Origin: a virus
Virus record (IMG/VR): IMGVR_UViG_3300024344_000038
Coordinates: 1-42,650 of that record
Reading direction: 5' to 3' (one strand)
Length of the DNA stretch: 42,650 bases
Every line of letters begins with the position of its first letter. The stretch's first letter is position 1. The position numbers and the translations under genes were made by a program. This document shows, piece after piece, positions 1 through 42,650 of this stretch. Below the pieces are notes generated by a model. The model was not told the origin of the DNA. It saw only the letters and a program-made list of their open reading frames with translations, and did not search any database.

Positions 1-131
1 TAAATTATAAAGATTCACCAGCTACTACTTCGGCAATTACTTATAAGGTTCGTGCTAGAAAAAATAGTGGAACAATTACATTGAACGAAAATTCAATCGG
101 CTCAATTACAGCATTTGAGATAGGAGCATAG
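1..131 (+). CDS. C-terminal part of fibre-like protein (gene begins at 42242)
   Basis: The window opens inside a gene. Reading the codon formed by base 42650 plus bases 1-2, the frame stays open to the TAG at 129-131 and continues the gene that starts at 42242, giving a 179-residue protein. The visible C-terminal 42 residues contain a DSPATTSAITYK stretch matching DSPSTTSATTYK in the gene at 438-1064, and both proteins end in EIGA. It is therefore a paralogous fibre-like or tail-tip module. The final codons (ATAGGAGCATAG) also supply the AGGAG Shine-Dalgarno for the next start at 133. Confidence 0.85.
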   Translation, partial: NYKDSPATTSAITYKVRARKNSGTITLNENSIGSITAFEIGA

Positions 132-132
132 T

Positions 133-438
133 ATGAGAATAACAACTGGACAAGCACTTACATCTCTTTGTCCTACTGCTGATTTTTCAGCGAGTGAAGA
201 AAATGATGGTACAAATGTTCAAATCTATTGGCACGACAAAGTGCAAAAACAACCTTCTAGTGCAGAAATAAAAGCAGAGATAGTTCGTCTACAAGCAGAA
301 TACGATAATAATAAATACCAAAGAGACAGGAAACCTCTCTACGGAACTTGGGAGGAGCAATTAGATATGATGTATCACGGAACGTGGAAAGACCATATTG
401 CAAAGGTGAAGGCCGATATACCGAAAGGAAATAACTAA
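133..438 (+). CDS. Tail-fibre-associated/chaperone-like protein, copy 1
   Basis: This 101-residue protein has a central RLQAEYD-x5-YQRDR-x2-Y motif followed by EEQLDMMYHG and a C-terminal VKADIPK. That arrangement (EYD, YQR, QLD.lYh, VK..yPK) is typical of small proteins found behind tail-fibre genes in marine phages, often described as DUF4376-like or fibre-assembly-like; the function is inferred from position only. It starts 2 bases after the preceding fibre gene with an AGGAG at 122-126. The stop overlaps the next ATG at 438. Two relatives lie at 1067-1375 and 1959-2273. Confidence 0.8.
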   Translation: MRITTGQALTSLCPTADFSASEENDGTNVQIYWHDKVQKQPSSAEIKAEIVRLQAEYDNNKYQRDRKPLYGTWEEQLDMMYHGTWKDHIAKVKADIPKGNN

Positions 439-1064
439 TGCCACAAATTGACATTTCAGGAAGCGACTCCAAACTAAGTTGCGACAAAATTCAGGGCCAG
501 TCAGGGAGTGTAGTCACCGTCCCTACTGGACATACAGTTGCAATCACGGATAGCGGTGGGCTTACTTTGGCTGGTACGGCTGTTAAGGCTGGTGCATTGG
601 GTAAAGTTTTGCAGGTAGTACAAACAGAAAAAACAGATACATTTTCTACAACGACAAATTCATTTGTTGACGTTACAGGAATGTCAGTTACGATAACTCC
701 AAGTGCAACTGGATCAAAAGTGTTGGTTTTAGGTCATTTAGAAATAATGGCTGATAATGGTGTAACTTCCCAGACACAATTACTCAGAGGAACCACTGCG
801 ATTAATATTGGTGCAGCAGCAGGATCTCGAACCCGTGCAACTTACAATACTGGTAATCAGGCGGGAGATATTGAGGGGGGGAATAGTGTATCTCTTTGTT
901 ATCTTGATTCGCCTTCAACAACAAGCGCAACAACATATAAAATACAGATTCGTAATAATGGGAGTGGAGGGGCAGTATATTTTAATCGAACTGATGCAGA
1001 TGATGATTTAGCTACAAGAGGCAGATTCGCGAGTACTCTTGTCGTGCAAGAAATAGGAGCATAA
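438..1064 (+). CDS. Fibre-like structural protein
   Basis: The 208-residue protein is rich in Thr, Ser, Gly and Ala and has no charged core, as is usual for phage fibre or appendage proteins. Its middle and C-terminus (GKVLQVVQTEKT..., DSPSTTSATTYKIQIRN, ending EIGA) match the gene spanning the window edge (GKVLQVVHNSTT..., DSPATTSAITYK, EIGA), so the two are paralogues. The beta-rich domain probably forms a trimeric jelly roll, which is an inference. The start ATG overlaps the stop of copy 1 of the chaperone-like gene, giving translational coupling. Confidence 0.8.
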   Translation: MPQIDISGSDSKLSCDKIQGQSGSVVTVPTGHTVAITDSGGLTLAGTAVKAGALGKVLQVVQTEKTDTFSTTTNSFVDVTGMSVTITPSATGSKVLVLGHLEIMADNGVTSQTQLLRGTTAINIGAAAGSRTRATYNTGNQAGDIEGGNSVSLCYLDSPSTTSATTYKIQIRNNGSGGAVYFNRTDADDDLATRGRFASTLVVQEIGA

Positions 1065-1066
1065 TA

Positions 1067-1375
1067 ATGGACAGAGATACTGCAATACGAAATACGCATC
1101 CTACTGTAACCAACATTAATGCGGAAAGAGATGCTTGGGATAAAGATGGGAATGTGGTCACTTTAGATGAATCAAAAATAGCTCCCGAAATGGCTAGGCT
1201 TCAAGCTGAATATGACTCAACACAATATCAGAGAGATAGACAACCAAACTATCCCCCAATAACCGACTACCTAGACGGCATAGTAAAGGGCGATCAGGCT
1301 CAAATAGATAAGTACATCGCTGACTGTTTGGCAGTTAAGCAACGATTCCCCAAGAATGATGGAGGTGACAAGTGA
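1067..1375 (+). CDS. Tail-fibre-associated/chaperone-like protein, copy 2
   Basis: The 102-residue product shares RLQAEYD-x5-YQRDR-Q-P-x-Y and a C-terminal VKQRFPK with copy 1 at 133-438, but its first 50 residues differ. Its Shine-Dalgarno (AGGAG) is formed by the last codons of the fibre gene at 438-1064. The end overlaps the next gene as GTGA. The alternation of fibre-like gene and this gene suggests each one serves the fibre encoded just upstream; that pairing is an inference. Confidence 0.8.
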   Translation: MDRDTAIRNTHPTVTNINAERDAWDKDGNVVTLDESKIAPEMARLQAEYDSTQYQRDRQPNYPPITDYLDGIVKGDQAQIDKYIADCLAVKQRFPKNDGGDK

Positions 1376-1962
1376 GTATCACACTGAACGGAAATGGCAC
1401 TATACAGAATCTTGTTGCTGGTGGACTTCCTACAGGATCAGTCACAGCAGATTCACTTTCGACTAACTCGGTGGATTCGGCAGAGTTAGTAGATGGGTCT
1501 ATTGATGCTAGTCATTTGGCAGCAGCAATCAAAGCGGGGCCATATGTTAGGGCATATGTAAATTCAACTCATAGTAATATAACAAATAATGTGTTTACCA
1601 AGGTGATATTAAATGGGGAATCCTACGATACAGCAAGCGAGTTTGATCCTTCCACAAATTACAGATGGACTTGTGGAACTGCTGGTAAATACTTGGCAAC
1701 AGCTAATTTGACTTGGGATCAACCGGGAATGGTTGCTGATAAACGGCATAAGGTAATGATCTATAAAAATGGTTCTCAAACTTCACACAATGAAACTTGG
1801 ACTGCTGTTGGGGGTGAGTTCTCGCAGTCTGTAACCGATGTATATGATATGTCTGCCACAGATTATCTTGAAATGTATTGTTGGCATCTGGCAGGAGTAG
1901 ACACACCAGATGTCCAAGCTGGGGCACAGACTACTTGGTTTGCTATAGCGAGGATTATATGA
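1372..1962 (+). CDS. Fibre-like protein with C1q/TNF-like jelly-roll domain
   Basis: The N-terminal 50 residues (NGNGTIQNLVAGGLPTGSVTADSL..., ...DGSIDASHL) resemble the tail-fibre spacer at 40276-41652 ([12 protein letters not shown]...). From about residue 58 onward the pattern (NNVFTKVILNGESYD, AGKYLATANLTW, MIYKNGSQTS, TDYLEMYCWH, TWFAIARI) fits a C1q/TNF-like jelly roll often found at phage fibre tips. The start is GTG at 1372, with GGAGGTGA at 1361-1368 as a strong ribosome site. It overlaps both neighbours. The role is receptor binding by inference. Confidence 0.8.
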   Translation: MSITLNGNGTIQNLVAGGLPTGSVTADSLSTNSVDSAELVDGSIDASHLAAAIKAGPYVRAYVNSTHSNITNNVFTKVILNGESYDTASEFDPSTNYRWTCGTAGKYLATANLTWDQPGMVADKRHKVMIYKNGSQTSHNETWTAVGGEFSQSVTDVYDMSATDYLEMYCWHLAGVDTPDVQAGAQTTWFAIARII

Positions 1963-2273
1963 AATTTATAAAACAAAAATCAACAGGGCAAATCGTTCAC
2001 AGAGAAATGCCTCACACTGATAAAACATTAGATAATGCTGTCCATGCACAGAGGATAGATAAAGCTGATTTAGAAATAGTGGAAGAAAATTGGACTGACG
2101 AGGAATGGAATAACGCTTTGCAAAATCAGTTGGGTTATGCAGAAAAACGCAAAGCAGAATACCCCTCAATAGAGGAACTGGTAGTCGCCCTATACGATAC
2201 CCAAGACAGGGCAGAGATTGATAAACGTAGGGCAGATATTAAGAAAAAATATCCGAAAGGAGTAACTAGATGA
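1959..2273 (+). CDS. Tail-fibre-associated/chaperone-like protein, copy 3
   Basis: I place the start at ATG 1959, which overlaps the preceding stop as ATGA; the same frame is open further upstream, but only inside the fibre gene. The 104-residue product ends with KRKAEYPSIEELVVALYD...IKKKYPK, the same layout as copies 1 and 2, but it lacks their RLQAEYD and has a different N-terminus (MKFIKQKSTGQIV). It is likely an assembly factor or chaperone for the fibre gene at 1372. AAAGGAG at 2256-2262 near its end is the ribosome site for the next gene. Confidence 0.75.
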   Translation: MKFIKQKSTGQIVHREMPHTDKTLDNAVHAQRIDKADLEIVEENWTDEEWNNALQNQLGYAEKRKAEYPSIEELVVALYDTQDRAEIDKRRADIKKKYPKGVTR

Positions 2274-2473
2274 GAGAACAACTACTAACAGCTTTGAGAT
2301 CCTATTATGTAGGACACATCGAAAAGCATAAGATGAACGTAGAAAATTTAATTAGGAACAATGTGGGTGTAGCCGAACACTCAGATTACATAGCAACCAT
2401 TTCTAAAGAAGTAGAAGAAGTTGCAAAGTATGACGAGATGTTACAAATGCTTGACAAACATTTTAAGGAGTAA
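2270..2473 (+). CDS. Conserved phage hypothetical protein, helical
   Basis: The 67-residue protein (MREQLLTALRSYYVGHIEKHKMNVENLI..., GVAEHSDYIATISKEVEEVAKYDEML) has the look of a small helical protein seen in many marine and T7-like phages near the lysis/terminase region, with the HxxNVE and GxxEHSD signatures. No function is known to me. The start overlaps the previous stop as ATGA, and AAAGGAG precedes it by 7 bases. Confidence 0.8.
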   Translation: MREQLLTALRSYYVGHIEKHKMNVENLIRNNVGVAEHSDYIATISKEVEEVAKYDEMLQMLDKHFKE

Positions 2474-2476
2474 CTC

Positions 2477-2728
2477 GTGCCTGAAAAAGACGTACTTGAA
2501 AAACTAAATGCTATGCACACAGATGTACTATTAATACATCAGGACTTATCAACAACTAAACATGAAGTCGAAGAACATGAGTTAATCCTTAGAGGAGAAT
2601 CTAAGATGAATGGTTTAGTAGGTGATGTTCGTAACATACAAACAGCGCAAGCTACTTCTAATCGACTTTGGCTTTTTATGGTTTCTATTACTGGAACTGT
2701 AATTGCATGGTTAGGATTATCTAAATGA
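2477..2728 (+). CDS. Single-pass membrane protein, possible holin or lysis protein
   Basis: The GTG start at 2477 is supported by AAGGAG six bases upstream. The 83-residue protein has an N-terminal helical, charged, heptad-like part (residues 1-60) and one C-terminal transmembrane segment (LWLFMVSITGTVIAWLGL). This resembles XhlA-type or small single-pass holin-associated proteins. Its position before the holin- and spanin-like genes and terminase fits the T7 gene 17.5-18.5-19 lysis region. The assignment is from topology and context, not from a diagnostic motif. Confidence 0.65.
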   Translation: MPEKDVLEKLNAMHTDVLLIHQDLSTTKHEVEEHELILRGESKMNGLVGDVRNIQTAQATSNRLWLFMVSITGTVIAWLGLSK

Positions 2729-3021
2729 GAAAAACAAGAAATCAATTAGTAATAGAGTTGCTTACAAATAAAGATAATTTACATCGACTTATAATTATCG
2801 AATGGTTTGATCCTTATGACGATAATGACGAAGTAACTGTTGGGAATCTTAATGTAAAAAAAGCTTTATATGAATCTTGTGGTTTTTTGATGGGAGTTTC
2901 AAACGATCATGCAGTTATTGGTTACAATAAAGACATGATTGAAAAAGGGAAGTACAAAGGATGTGGTTATATACCCATGTCTTTAATTACTAACGCACAT
3001 TTAATGGATAGGAATTGCTAA
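2725..3021 (+). CDS. Hypothetical protein in the lysis region
   Basis: The 98-residue soluble protein starts with MRKTRNQLVIELL and contains IIIEWFDPYDDNDE and CGFLMGVSNDHAVIGYN. The middle suggests a small beta sheet with acidic residues and the end holds three scattered cysteines. I do not recognise a function. It overlaps both neighbours by a few bases (ATGA at 2725 and TAATG at 3021), so it belongs to the same translationally coupled run. Confidence 0.7.
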   Translation: MRKTRNQLVIELLTNKDNLHRLIIIEWFDPYDDNDEVTVGNLNVKKALYESCGFLMGVSNDHAVIGYNKDMIEKGKYKGCGYIPMSLITNAHLMDRNC

Positions 3022-3227
3022 TGGAAACTATTATTAAACCTATTATGAACTTTATTGACGGTTTTATGCCAGGATATAAAACATATTTTATGATGCTTAT
3101 GGGTGTTATGATGTGTATATGTCAAATGATGGGCTATCATGCGTTTACTCCTGAAGCTTGGGCATTAGTTGGTATGACAGGTGGTATTACTTGGAAATTA
3201 GGTATGGATCGAGTTAAACGAAAATAA
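3021..3227 (+). CDS. Small membrane protein, holin candidate
   Basis: I chose ATG 3021, directly on the preceding TAA, over the upstream TTG. The 68-residue product has a hydrophobic Met-rich segment (YFMMLMGVMMCICQMMGYHAF) and a second weaker one (EAWALVGMTGGITWKLGM), then a basic tail DRVKRK. Two short transmembrane helices with a positively charged C-terminus is the class II holin layout, matching its place immediately before the spanin-like genes and terminase. No family motif confirms it. Confidence 0.65.
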   Translation: METIIKPIMNFIDGFMPGYKTYFMMLMGVMMCICQMMGYHAFTPEAWALVGMTGGITWKLGMDRVKRK

Positions 3228-3228
3228 C

Positions 3229-3414
3229 ATGGGTATCATAGGTTTACTAAAGGCTATCTTTCAGATAGCCCTATGGTATCTTAAAGGAAAACCAGAACGT
3301 GAACGTATTAAAAACAAGGAACAATTTGATAAAGCTATTGCAGATGGGGATGCTTCTCGTATTACCCTTCTTTTTAGTAAACTGCACGACAGAAAGAGCA
3401 GTCATAATTCCTAG
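3229..3414 (+). CDS. Possible i-spanin-like membrane-anchored protein
   Basis: The 61-residue product has an N-terminal hydrophobic helix (IIGLLKAIFQIALWYLK) followed by a charged helical part (ERERIKNKEQFDKAIADGDASRITLLFSKLHDR). A downstream gene with a lipobox starts inside it in another frame. This resembles the nested Rz/Rz1 spanin arrangement, with this protein as the inner-membrane partner. It is short for an i-spanin, so it could also be an unrelated small lysis-region protein. Confidence 0.6.
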   Translation: MGIIGLLKAIFQIALWYLKGKPERERIKNKEQFDKAIADGDASRITLLFSKLHDRKSSHNS

Positions 3415-3517
3415 TGATATGACGATAACCAAGATAGACGAGCACCACTATAAGGTATCAGATGCTTGGCTACATAAACAATATAATCTCTTAAGGAGCT
3501 GTGAAAATGGACGATAA
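3299..3517 (+). CDS. Small lipoprotein, o-spanin (Rz1-like) candidate
   Basis: The reading frame contains a signal peptide with hydrophobic core LLVLPFFLV and a lipobox LVNC followed by TTERAVIIPSD, so the Cys would be the lipidated +1 residue and the mature part about 44 residues. The GTG at 3299 has AAAGGA ten bases upstream; in-frame ATGs at 3344 and 3350 are alternative starts just before the hydrophobic core. It overlaps the previous gene out of frame by 116 bases and runs 11 bases into the small terminase gene. A short outer-membrane lipoprotein in this position is most simply an o-spanin. Confidence 0.7.
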   Translation: MNVLKTRNNLIKLLQMGMLLVLPFFLVNCTTERAVIIPSDMTITKIDEHHYKVSDAWLHKQYNLLRSCENGR

Positions 3518-3740
3518 AAGTTCTGAAAAGGATTTAGGAGAATTACATGGTATCCTTGCTAAAACACTTAAAGAAAAAATTATGTCGGGTGATGCCTCTC
3601 CAGCAGATCTTAATGTGGCCCGTCAGTTTCTTAGAGACAATCATATTGAGTGTAATGGTTCTAATAATCTGGATATAAAAAGTTTAATAGAAGAACTTCC
3701 TTTTGATGAAATCCCAAAAAAGCCAGCTAGAGCTAATTAA
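3507..3740 (+). CDS. terS: Terminase small subunit
   Basis: The 77-residue protein has the KEKIMSGDASPADLNVARQFLRDN helix region that is characteristic of T7-like small terminase subunits (gp18-type). It recognises concatemer DNA and recruits the large subunit. I chose ATG 3507 rather than the in-frame GTG 3501 because AAGGAG at 3493-3498 lies eight bases before the ATG. It overlaps the large terminase by 35 bases. Confidence 0.85.
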   Translation: MDDKSSEKDLGELHGILAKTLKEKIMSGDASPADLNVARQFLRDNHIECNGSNNLDIKSLIEELPFDEIPKKPARAN

Positions 3741-5358
3741 AGCTGATTTCAGGAACTTTCTGTATTTAGCATGGAAACATTTAGCTCTACCTGAACCAAC
3801 CCCAATACAATATGATATAGCTGATTACCTCCAAGGTGGACCTAAGAGACTCATCATTCAAGCTTTTAGAGGTGTAGGTAAGTCTTGGATTACTTCAGCA
3901 TTTGTCGTATGGAAACTTTTAGTAGACCCACAGTTGAAATTTCTAGTGGTGTCTGCATCTAAACAGAGGTCTGATGATTTCAGCACGTTTACAAAAAGAA
4001 TCATTAACGAAATGCCAGTTTTACAACACTTACGAGCACGAGAAGATCAACGTAACTCCAATGTGGCCTTTGACGTTGCTCCTGCTCGTGCTTCCCATGC
4101 TCCTTCTGTCAAGTCTGTTGGTATTACTGGGCAGATTGTCGGTAGTCGGGCTCACATTATAATTGCAGATGATGTCGAGGTATTATCTAATGCTTTGACT
4201 CAAGTCATGCGCGATAAGCTAGGTGAAGTAGTAAAAGAGTTCGATGCTGTAGTTATGCCTAAAGTTGGACGTATTGTTTATTTAGGTACACCACAAGTAG
4301 AAGAATCTCTTTATAGCAGCTTACAGTCCAGAGGATACGAATGTCGTATATGGCCTGCTAGGATGCCCGATAGTCGATTAAAAGAATTCTATAGTACCAA
4401 GCTGTCTCCTTTCATAAATGTCCTTCAGAAAGCCACTGGAGAGCCCACAGACCCCCTCAGATTTGATGATCTGGATTTAACTGAACGTGAGTCTTCCTAT
4501 GGTAAATCTGGTTTTGCTCTCCAGTTTATGCTGGATACTTCAGGAGAGGACGATCAGCGTTATCCGCTTAAACTCAGGGATCTACTTGTAATTCCTCTAG
4601 ATTCAGACCAAGGGCCTGGAAGGGTGCTTTACGCTAAAGATGAGCTCCTGGATCTGCCTGCTGTGGGTTTAACCGGAGATTACTTCTATAAGCCTTTTGA
4701 AGTCTCAAAGGATTACTATGAGTATACCGGAGCAGCACTCCATCTAGATCCTAGTGGTAGAGGAGCTGATGAAACAGGTTATGTTGTCACTAAACTATTG
4801 AATGGTAAGATCTTTGTGTTAGCTGTTGGTGGACTTAAAGGTGGCTATGATCGCGGTACATTAACTCAGTTAGCCAAGATAGCTCAACAATACAAGGTTA
4901 ACACCATAGAAATAGAAGCTAACTTTGGTGATGGTATGTATACTGAGTTGTTTAAACCTGTACTTAACCAGTATCACCAGTGTCATGTAGAAGAAATAAA
5001 ACATTCTAAGCAAAAAGAAGCAAGAATTATAGATATATTAGAACCTATAATGAACCAACATAGACTTGTTATAGATCTAGATGAAGCTAGAAATGACTAT
5101 GAGAATTCTAAAGAAGAACCTCGTAGACAATTATTCTATCAAATGACTCGACTTACACGAGATAAGGGATCACTTCAGTATGATGATAGAATAGATGTCT
5201 TAGCTATGGGAGTAAACTATTGGGTAGAACAAATGGCTGCTGATGAAACATTAGCGTACCATGAGAGAAGAAATGAACAATTTGAAGACAACATCAAATC
5301 TTTTATGTCTACAGTAGATCAGTCATATGAAGATGAAAATGTTTGGGTCAAAGTCTAG
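3706..5358 (+). CDS. terL: Terminase large subunit (packaging ATPase and nuclease)
   Basis: The protein of about 550 residues is the T7 gp19-type DNA packaging motor. Walker A is RGVGKSW at residues 55-61, Walker B is HIIIADDVE with acidic residues near 155-156, and the C-terminal RNase H-like nuclease has LHLDPSGRG (Asp348) and a late DDRIDVLAMGVNYW. The start is ATG 3706, with a TTG just upstream at 3703 as an alternative. It lies inside the end of the small subunit gene, so translation is probably coupled. The protein cuts concatemers and pumps DNA through the connector encoded at 23463. Confidence 0.97.
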   Translation: MKSQKSQLELIKADFRNFLYLAWKHLALPEPTPIQYDIADYLQGGPKRLIIQAFRGVGKSWITSAFVVWKLLVDPQLKFLVVSASKQRSDDFSTFTKRIINEMPVLQHLRAREDQRNSNVAFDVAPARASHAPSVKSVGITGQIVGSRAHIIIADDVEVLSNALTQVMRDKLGEVVKEFDAVVMPKVGRIVYLGTPQVEESLYSSLQSRGYECRIWPARMPDSRLKEFYSTKLSPFINVLQKATGEPTDPLRFDDLDLTERESSYGKSGFALQFMLDTSGEDDQRYPLKLRDLLVIPLDSDQGPGRVLYAKDELLDLPAVGLTGDYFYKPFEVSKDYYEYTGAALHLDPSGRGADETGYVVTKLLNGKIFVLAVGGLKGGYDRGTLTQLAKIAQQYKVNTIEIEANFGDGMYTELFKPVLNQYHQCHVEEIKHSKQKEARIIDILEPIMNQHRLVIDLDEARNDYENSKEEPRRQLFYQMTRLTRDKGSLQYDDRIDVLAMGVNYWVEQMAADETLAYHERRNEQFEDNIKSFMSTVDQSYEDENVWVKV

Positions 5359-40275: not shown

Positions 40276-41652
40276 ATGGCTAATTCAAGTGTAAGATATG
40301 TTGCTTCAGGTGACACTCAGGAATTTGCTGTTACTTTTCCATTTATCAGTCGAACTCATGTAACTGTCGAGGTCGATGGATCTTCAGCAAGTTTTACTTG
40401 GAACAACGATAGTTTAATAACAGTGACTTCTCCTGCTGATATAACTGCGGATCAGGTAGTTTTAATCAAGCGTACTACAAGTCAAGCTACAAGGCTTGTA
40501 GACTATGTAGATGGCTCTAATTTATCTGAGACAGACTTGGATACCGATAGTAAACAAGCGTTCTACATGGCTCAGGAGGCTCTAGATGAGCTCACGTTAC
40601 TTGATGACGCTGCTATTGCAACATCGGGTTTTATATTAGTAGCTGACGGTACAGATTATGCTGGTGTAGCTCTCTCAGGAGATGCTACTATCAGTGCTGC
40701 TGGAGCTTTAACAATAGCTAGTGGAGCAGTAGAGACTGCTATGATAGCTGCGGATGCTATCAATGCAACAAAAATAGCTGACGATGCGATTGACAGCGAA
40801 CACTATACAGACGGAAGTATTGACACTGCCCATATTGGAGCTGGACAAGTAACTACCGCGAAATTGGCTGATGATGCTGTTACCGGAGCTAAAATAACAT
40901 TATTTGATGATTCTTATGCTGCTACTAATACACATATTTTAGTTGCAGATGGCACTGATTTTGATAATGTAGCTATGACAGGAGATATAACTATCTCTAA
41001 TGCTGGTGTTACCTCTATTGGTAGTGGTGTTATTCAAAATGCTGATATTAATGGAAGTGCTGCTATAGATGCTTCTAAGATTCATAATGGGACTATAAGT
41101 AACACTGAGTTTGGTTATCTTAATGGTGTGACTTCAGCTATTCAAACTCAAATAGATGATGTTGTTTCAGGTACAGTTTCAACAATAGATGATGATAACT
41201 TTACACTCCAAGATAATGGAGATACAACTAAAAAAGCTCAATTCCAATGTTCTGGAATATCAACTAGTACGACTAGAACCTTTACTTTTCCAGATGCTAA
41301 TGCTACTTTAGTAGGCACAGCTACTACAGATACACTAACTAATAAAACTTTAACTACACCTGTTATTAATACAGGTGCTAGTTTAAAAAATGCTGCTTCA
41401 AGTGCAGGCTATTTAGATTTTTATGAAGATTCAGATAACGGTACAAACTATGTTAGAGTAATTGGTCCTGCTGCTACGACTACTGTAACAATCACTTTGC
41501 CTGCTGCTACAGATACATTGGTAGGTAAAGCAACCACAGATACATTAACAAATAAAACATTAACCAGCCCTACTATAAATAGTCCAGTTATCGGTGGAAC
41601 TTGGACTTCTTATACAACAAGTACAGGCAAAGCATTAGTCATGGGATTTTAG
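40276..41652 (+). CDS. Tail fibre protein (T7 gp17-like N-terminus)
   Basis: The first 105 residues ([57 protein letters not shown]) are the T7 gp17-type virion-attachment domain. The rest is a repeated shaft: HILVADGTD-type motifs recur at residues about 118 and 219, and [10 protein letters not shown] recurs about 70 residues apart (Asn356 and Asn426). The C-terminus is short and lacks an obvious receptor domain, so the small proteins that follow may complete the tip. It starts directly on the gp16-like stop. Confidence 0.9.
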
Positions 41653-41661
41653 GAGAAAGTT

Positions 41662-41991
41662 ATGGCAAGTGAAGTTTTAAAATTAGCAACATTCAGAGGC
41701 GATGCTTCTTCTGTTCAAGCATTACTTACTGTTGCATCTGGACATACTTATACGGTTTTAAGTATAACTATATGTGAAACAGGAAATGCAGCGGAAACAT
41801 TCAAATTATTGATTGATGACGGAGGGGGAGGATCAGATACTTATATTTATTTCGATCAAGACCTTACAGCTAAAGCAACCTTTGAACATACTTCCAAATT
41901 TGTAATGGAAGCCTCAGATCATTTATCAATTATTACTGGTAGTTCATCAAATATTGATGTATGTGTTTCATATCTCGATCAGACATTATAA
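41662..41991 (+). CDS. Small fibre-associated structural protein
   Basis: The 109-residue protein (VLKLATFRGDASSVQALLTVASGHTYTVLSITICETGN, AETFKLLIDDGGGGSDTYIYFD, ASDHLSIITGSSSNIDVCVSYLDQ) is beta-rich and looks like a small jelly roll of the kind found in phage appendage proteins. TTAGGAGAAAG precedes the start by a few bases. It sits directly after the tail fibre and probably joins the fibre tip. Confidence 0.7.
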   Translation: MASEVLKLATFRGDASSVQALLTVASGHTYTVLSITICETGNAAETFKLLIDDGGGGSDTYIYFDQDLTAKATFEHTSKFVMEASDHLSIITGSSSNIDVCVSYLDQTL

Positions 41992-42001
41992 GGAATAAAC
42001 T

Positions 42002-42232
42002 ATGAGTGGAATCGTTGGATCAAACGTAACCAGATCATCAGGTATTATAGCTACAGCAGAAGGTGGAGGTCCAAGTTTAGGCACAAGTCACATTATACGC
42101 ACCAATGCCAAAACTATTGATGAGAATATAACTTTTCTAGGCTCAGAAAATGGGACAACTGCTGGTCCTGTTTCAGTATCAGATGGATATACGATAACGG
42201 TAGCTAGTGGCTCAACCTGGACTATAATCTAA
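42002..42232 (+). CDS. Small fibre-tip-like protein
   Basis: The 76-residue product begins MSGIVGSNVTRSSGIIA and ends GPVSVSDGYTITVASGSTWTII, a start and end pattern shared by many small structural proteins in marine phages. It is beta-prone with no charged core. AAGGAATAAAC precedes the start. By position it belongs to the fibre set. Confidence 0.7.
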   Translation: MSGIVGSNVTRSSGIIATAEGGGPSLGTSHIIRTNAKTIDENITFLGSENGTTAGPVSVSDGYTITVASGSTWTII

Positions 42233-42241
42233 GGATAAACT

Positions 42242-42650
42242 ATGGCATCGACAATTAAAGTAACAAATATAAATACACCAGATGGAAGTGGAAATATCAC
42301 AGTAGACAGGCCGTTGAGTGGATCGGGAGCAAGTCTTACCAGTTTACCAGCAGGGAATTTAACTGGTGCTATGGCAAGTGGTGTTACAGGGGTGGGGAAA
42401 GTTTTGCAAGTAGTCCATAATAGTACAACTACGAATTATACTGTAAGTGCTAGTGATGCTGACGTTACCAATCATACTCTTTCTATTACTCCTACATCTG
42501 CAACCTCTACGATAATGCTATTCACGAGAACTCATTACTATTATTCAGCTAGTGATTCAGGCTGGTCAATTACATTAAGACGGACTGTGGGTGCAACCGA
42601 CACTAACGTTCATTCAGATAGTACAGCTTATGCTTACTATGGTGAAACAG
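42242..42650 (+). CDS. Fibre-like protein, N-terminal part (continues at base 1)
   Basis: The frame is open from ATG 42242 (AAGGATAAACT upstream) to the window end and continues in frame at bases 1-131, giving 179 residues. The N-terminus (ASTIKVTNINTPDGSGNITVDRPLSG) is the usual short attachment segment of marine phage fibre-like proteins. The GKVLQVVHNSTTTNYTVSASDADVTN part matches GKVLQVVQTEKTDTFSTTTNSF in the gene at 438-1064. The C-terminal part at 1-131 also matches, so these two are paralogues. Confidence 0.85.
   Translation, partial: MASTIKVTNINTPDGSGNITVDRPLSGSGASLTSLPAGNLTGAMASGVTGVGKVLQVVHNSTTTNYTVSASDADVTNHTLSITPTSATSTIMLFTRTHYYYSASDSGWSITLRRTVGATDTNVHSDSTAYAYYGET

Follow-up and report, generated by a model that had tools for sequence, protein, structure and literature searches.

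The window analysed here, the genome of a marine T7-like phage (42,650 nucleotides, IMG/VR record IMGVR_UViG_3300024344_000038), carries a tandem array of three fibre-like genes, each followed by a small gene, and its cassettes are mosaics in which the unit of exchange is the fibre tip together with the N-terminal half (N-half) of the small protein. This unit is referred to as the cartridge, and the C-terminal half (C-half) of the small protein goes with the fibre N-terminal module (N-module) as the slot. The small proteins are quite probably Tfa-like fibre-assembly chaperones in a three-slot array of receptor-binding tips with exchangeable cartridges, for which we infer binding, chaperone activity and receptor change.

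Organization of the Fibre Locus

The record is circular, as the first fibre-like ORF (fA, 179 aa) reads in frame through both ends of the window (42242–42650 and 1–132). The cassette genes lie on the + strand in the order fA, sA, fB, sB, fC, sC, neighbours abutting or overlapping by 1–4 nt, and an earlier sequence-only reading had given the order and coordinates of these pairs correctly. Slot 1 comprises fA, with an N-module at about 42242–42390, a cartridge beginning near 42391 with the start of the tip, and the C-terminal end of the tip ('...SITAFEIGA') in the in-frame continuation at 1–132, and sA (133–438; phrog_9114), whose N-half belongs to the cartridge up to about 331 and whose C-half (type A, 'YQRDRKPLYGTWEEQLDMMYHGTWKDHIAKVKADIPK') belongs to the slot. 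In slot 2, fB (438–1064; phrog_6942, tail fiber) has an N-module at about 438–613 and a tip at about 600–1061, modelled as a TNF-like beta sandwich, and precedes sB (1067–1375), with an N-half reaching to about 1241–1250 and a C-half of type B ('YPPITDYLDGIVKGDQAQIDKYIADCLAVKQRFPK'). Slot 3 is made up of fC (1372–1962), with an N-module at about 1372–1536 and another type of tip from 1537, and of sC (1959–2273), the N-half of which completes the slot-3 cartridge to about 2164 and the C-half of which (type C, 'YPSIEELVVALYDTQDRAEIDKRRADIKKKYPK') starts from about 2168.

The array is flanked by backbone genes, also on the + strand. Upstream is f0 (40276–41652), a T7-type tail fibre gene with a virion-anchoring N-terminal domain (PF03906, E = 2.8e-19) and 97% nucleotide identity to the related locus L214 (labels of this kind denote relative loci or contigs, WIN being the window). 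Right after it lies o1 (41662–41991), assigned to the backbone by synteny and encoding a conserved 109-aa protein for which viral contigs contain 102 relatives, at identities of up to 99%. This strongly conserved protein comes after the T7-type fibre in many phages of marine origin, also in some where no small gene was detected, and could be an adaptor for the extra fibres. The next gene, o2 (42002–42232), encodes a small domain with PHROG matches at the C-termini of long fibres; in relatives the domain is found standalone or as the C-terminus of a long protein (L013 3731–5383, L207 4294–5946), and in the loci where the arrangement was readable, slot-1 fibres come immediately after it. The downstream backbone (2270–5358), with small ORFs and the terminase (3703–5358), is conserved in relatives with differing cassettes. 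The relatives of the primase in the window include many T7-like marine phages. One 6-kb contig from IMG sample 3300009481 (L039, positions 1–3373) matches the window at 100% identity over the stretch from sC to the terminase inclusive, and is probably the same phage.

Relatives and Gene Pairing

With sA as the query, 32 viral contigs yielded relatives of the small proteins, and with sB more than 300 did so; a profile built from the sA and sB relatives recovered 224 ORFs, 154 of them distinct. Of these 154 genes, 140 were preceded on the same strand by an ORF of 60 aa or longer, at a median gap of -4 nt, and the remaining 14 were almost all located at contig ends. About 150 related cassettes were compared; in two groups, cassettes fetched repeatedly from one contig or from near-identical ones were combined manually. 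The order of fibre and then small gene was also identified in phages S46-C10, HTVC010P, HTVC019P, S-CAM8, P-RSM4, MEP402, S42-C7, Lederberg and P-TIM40, and the OM43 phage MEP402 has two tandem pairs of tip and small gene. Genes for a 2OG-Fe(II) oxygenase, an antenna protein or a tryptophan halogenase lie close to the pair in cyanomyoviruses (L036, L037, L315).

Not every tip has a helper of its own. In loci fetched through the tip, a small gene was directly downstream of 70 of 109 tip genes and another tip gene followed 13; P-SSP7 (L396) has three consecutive fibre genes followed by a single small gene that, judging solely from its location and size, takes the place of the helper, and Lederberg (L314) likewise has more tandem tip genes than small genes. 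An initial estimate that nearly every tip gene has a small gene (104 of 109) was dropped in favour of the tip-fetched value, because it was biased by most loci having been fetched via the small gene. In two close relatives, L226 and L043 (the latter with 99% identity in the terminase), no small gene was detected and o1 is followed by ORFs of 460, 260 and 114 aa. No paper on the virion proteomics of P-SSP7 or MEP402 was found.

Crossovers and Relocation of Cartridges

The exchange is seen in L214, which is 97–99% identical to the window on both sides of the array, with unrelated tips and N-halves between. Nucleotide identity of 97% runs through f0, o1 and o2 into fA, where it ends at 42315 after 25 codons; within the array, the only matches are at the end of sA with the start of fB and at sB with the start of fC, after which identity resumes at 98.8% from 2168 (residue 70 of sC) through the terminase, the N-half of sC being unrelated there. 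The same kind of junction is seen with other relatives, as nucleotide identity of the sA C-half to L008, L009 and L010 starts at 314 and that of the sB C-half to L013, L031 and L097 starts at 1250. Crossovers in the small genes are located at a conserved Y-x-x-x-R motif, at 314–331 in sA, about 1241–1250 in sB and about 2135–2168 in sC, and thus sit inside the small gene and not between fibre and small gene. The whole pair of fibre and assembly factor, proposed in the sequence-only reading as the shuffled unit, is therefore replaced by the tip and N-half, with the junction inside the small gene.

Cartridges also relocate between slots. The slot-3 cartridge of the window (from 1537 into sC) has 90% nucleotide identity to L207, where it lies behind a slot-1 N-module; the 331 bases before it in L207 correspond to o2 and the slot-1 N-module in the window (to 42390), and the two matching blocks are 1 base apart. 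Conversely, the slot-1 cartridge of the window is found at 79% nucleotide identity (42391 to 331) in L120, behind a slot-3-like N-module. Comparison of the locus among relatives, which had been suggested in the sequence-only reading, thus revealed cassettes exchanged between near-identical backbones.

Such exchange among relatives upholds the shuffling part of the earlier proposal of duplication and shuffling; recent tandem duplication is rejected. The closest small-protein N-half was never in the same genome (0 of 53 cassettes in multi-cassette genomes), the same was true of the closest tip, and the median normalised similarity of N-halves was 0.10 within genomes vs 0.70 between them. Neighbouring cassettes were therefore assembled from different sources.

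Coupling of the Modules

On side-by-side reading, each cassette consists of four separately assorting modules, namely the fibre N-terminus, the fibre tip, and the small-protein N-half and C-half. There are three recurrent fibre N-modules, whose order is constant (slot 1 'MASTIK...', slot 2 'MPQID...', slot 3 'M(A/S)I.(I/L)NG.G.'). A few types of C-half can be distinguished. Coupling was assessed in 22 genomes with 53 cassettes by shuffling small proteins only among cassettes of the same genome, thereby controlling for genome relatedness, with similarity thresholds (0.4 and 0.45) that were set once and left untuned. The tip and N-half were correlated (0.335 vs 0.136 ± 0.054 in shuffles, 0/2000), and the fibre N-module and C-half gave 35 joint similar pairs vs 13.2 expected (0/2000 shuffles). 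By the same shuffles no coupling was found between tip and C-half (692/2000) or between N-half and C-half (662/2000). A similar tip in two genomes was accompanied by a similar N-half in 26 of 26 pairs. In the marine set, which excludes the largest cluster (48 cassettes, mostly of apparent freshwater origin), similar-tip pairs had a similar N-half in 9 of 9 cases, a similar C-half in 33% and a similar fibre N-module in 22%. For pairs with similar N-halves, tip similarity was 0.19 whether the C-half was similar or not.

As tip and N-half are adjacent, part of their coupling could be due to hitchhiking. Taken to its end, this would mean that the two are exchanged together simply as neighbours, with the conserved flanks acting as homology arms and the small protein having no tip-specific role. 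The cartridge is indeed one contiguous segment with flanks conserved at the DNA level; however, linkage of this kind also predicts crossovers at the gene boundary, yet pairs sharing a tip keep the N-half in every case (26/26, marine 9/9), and N-half and C-half are uncoupled though they are closer together and in the same gene. Linkage as the full explanation is thus considered unlikely.

The coupling of fibre N-module and C-half, on the other hand, can be explained by backbone linkage alone. A tentative possibility, compatible with the chaperone reading as an extension of it, is that the C-half recognises the N-module or slot of its own fibre (or of the next fibre) and so places each tip on the virion. 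The excess of joint pairs noted above is as this would predict, and the association of the C-half is greater with its own fibre (158 joint pairs) than with the next (53), a comparison that does not decide the matter because the slots keep their order and a single large group of cassettes influences the count. Against it, positional linkage of the backbone flanks accounts for the coupling without any function, and there are exceptions in which a slot-1 N-module is combined with C-half D (L040), a slot-2 N-module with E (L045) and a slot-3 type with B (L120). The proposal that each C-half type occurs once per genome was also dropped, as this non-redundancy was not significant (2 of 43 pairs vs 4.4 expected, 309/2000). 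A further step, in which one half of the small protein reads the tip and the other reads the slot, so that three different tips could be set at defined places on the virion and any cartridge could fit any slot without loss of assembly, is regarded as doubtful.

The Small-Protein Family

The relatedness of the three small proteins, which the sequence-only reading had proposed, was confirmed. The sA/sB alignment scored 94 against 27 ± 5 for shuffles (0/1000 reaching 94), sB/sC scored 58 (1/1000) and sA/sC 44 (16/1000), and all three match phrog_9114 (1e-22, 1e-13 and 1.6e-5), with the profile covering most of each protein. This PHROG, which has no assigned function, is matched by 99 of 99 family members. 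Longer proteins containing the small-protein domain occur in L038 (3485–4117, 210 aa) and L132 (3495–4070, 191 aa).

The AlphaFold2 model of sB (mean pLDDT 91) has an alpha/beta N-terminal part and C-terminal helices. No match to this single model of one member, Tfa included, was found in the PDB using Foldseek (E ≤ 0.001), a sequence search of the PDB with the small protein also gave no match, and among viral models only uncharacterised phage proteins were matched. When the 99 members were compared with Pfam (E ≤ 0.1), there was no Tfa (PF02413/PF16778) or tail-assembly-chaperone match among the matches listed, which covered 25 of 29 families. By sequence and fold the small proteins are therefore outside the Tfa family, and their likeness to Tfa is one of anatomy only: a gene directly after the fibre gene, a variable N-part matched to the fibre C-terminus and a conserved C-part. 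The XkdW domain (PF09636) was above the gathering cutoff in 2 of 99 members (L142:5067 and L005:1268; 4.7e-12), in the N-half only, and sA, sB and sC had no match to it at E ≤ 1.

Fibre Tips

The fibre-like proteins share segments or differ in their tips, as had been claimed earlier. Those of slots 1 and 2 are homologous (6.6e-10) and the C-terminal part of fC is unrelated to both, its only sharing being an N-terminal repeat-like segment in common with f0. fC weakly matches tail-protein PHROGs and has no match in the PDB by sequence. The N-terminal anchor PF03906 present in f0 was not found in fA, fB or fC, which would therefore need another way of attaching.

In the AlphaFold2 model of fB, residues 56–208 form a confident beta sandwich and residues 1–55 are not confident, a border that agrees with that between the fibre N-module and the tip. 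Foldseek matched the modelled tip to the trimeric TNF-like lectins PLTL (TM-score by target 0.71–0.74) and BC2L-C (0.66–0.72), and also to Chlamydia Pgp3, and the tip is accordingly predicted to be a TNF-like trimeric lectin. The label 'jelly-roll', given to fC in the sequence-only reading, fits the modelled structure of fB. A sequence search placed the fB family at the C-terminal end of the fibre-like chain 'orf22' of the solved structure 9efk (1.4e-29); orf22 is present there in 18 chains.

Proposed Mechanism and Comparison with Known Systems

A close likeness is to cyanophage Pam3, in which the variable N-domain of the chaperone gp25 binds the TNF-like part of the fibre gp24 and the helical C-domain trimerises; gp25 is absent from virions and is said to resemble Mu Tfa (PMC9608196). 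Both systems combine a fibre and a small chaperone-like protein with a TNF-like tip, and the sB model has the same layout of an alpha/beta N-part and a helical C-part. Pam3 differs in that gp25 is 162 aa long with a larger C-domain and forms a single pair and not an array, and the sB model has no detectable fold match. In the Bacillus phages Sam46 and Sam112, mutations in an XkdW-like gene after the fibre gene change the plaque type (PMC8190038). XkdW of these phages and of PBSX-like elements is similarly a small protein encoded after a tail fibre gene, but it matches the N-half of few members only, those of the window not among them.

Given the Pam3 gp25 pair, and the XkdW N-halves together with the Sam46 and Sam112 mutations, we propose a Tfa-like helper whose N-half reads the tip and whose C-half serves a general role. 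Each slot would be framed by the fibre N-module and the small-protein C-half, with the tip and N-half as the exchangeable cartridge between these frames. The variable N-half would recognise the matching tip, and the conserved helical C-half would perform a general step, such as trimerisation or capping. A new tip might then have to arrive together with its own recognition half, and the general half could stay put. Such an arrangement suggests that the phage may alter its attachment target in a plug-in manner.

A different role can be envisaged for the small protein, as a distal adhesin retained on the virion and not a transient chaperone. The precedent is gp38 of the T-even phages, the gene of which directly follows the fibre gene, as the small genes do here. 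However, the sB model is small and mostly helical, without glycine-rich loops, and the N-half is conserved when the tip stays (69% protein identity between sA and L120), which is not what is expected of a hypervariable receptor face. As Pam3 gp25, of similar layout, is also absent from virions, a role of this kind is highly improbable.

The chaperone reading places the array among other systems of fibre and helper. Mu Tfa (gpU, PF02413) has a two-domain layout of a non-conserved N-part and a conserved C-part, which the small proteins share, but they differ from it in the absence of Tfa Pfam matches (99 members, among the matches listed) and of a fold match. In the Alteromonas phages A5 and V22, a fibre and its cognate chaperone form a host-recognition module that is exchanged among marine phages not related to one another (PMC10579305); there the pair of fibre and chaperone is shared between phages, whereas the present array has its junctions within the small genes and carries several cassettes in tandem. 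The part of the work on metaviromic islands available to us describes host-recognition genes (C1q-like, tail fibre, XkdW-like) as hypervariable in otherwise conserved marine phage genomes (PMC3909814), but treats this variability gene by gene, and no cartridge or two-half helper was found in that part. The modular architecture is real and well supported, and it stays within the theme of fibre and assembly chaperone, not being a new kind of system.

For phrog_9114 and its relatives, which occur in phages of Pelagibacter, Prochlorococcus, Synechococcus and OM43 as well as in numerous further viral contigs, a testable function can now be proposed. The results also yield a concrete rule by which receptor specificity may be altered in marine phages, in which the tip and the matching half of the helper move jointly and the backbone halves stay. 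Cultured phages, MEP402 and HTVC010P among them, already contain pairs on which its predictions can be tested.
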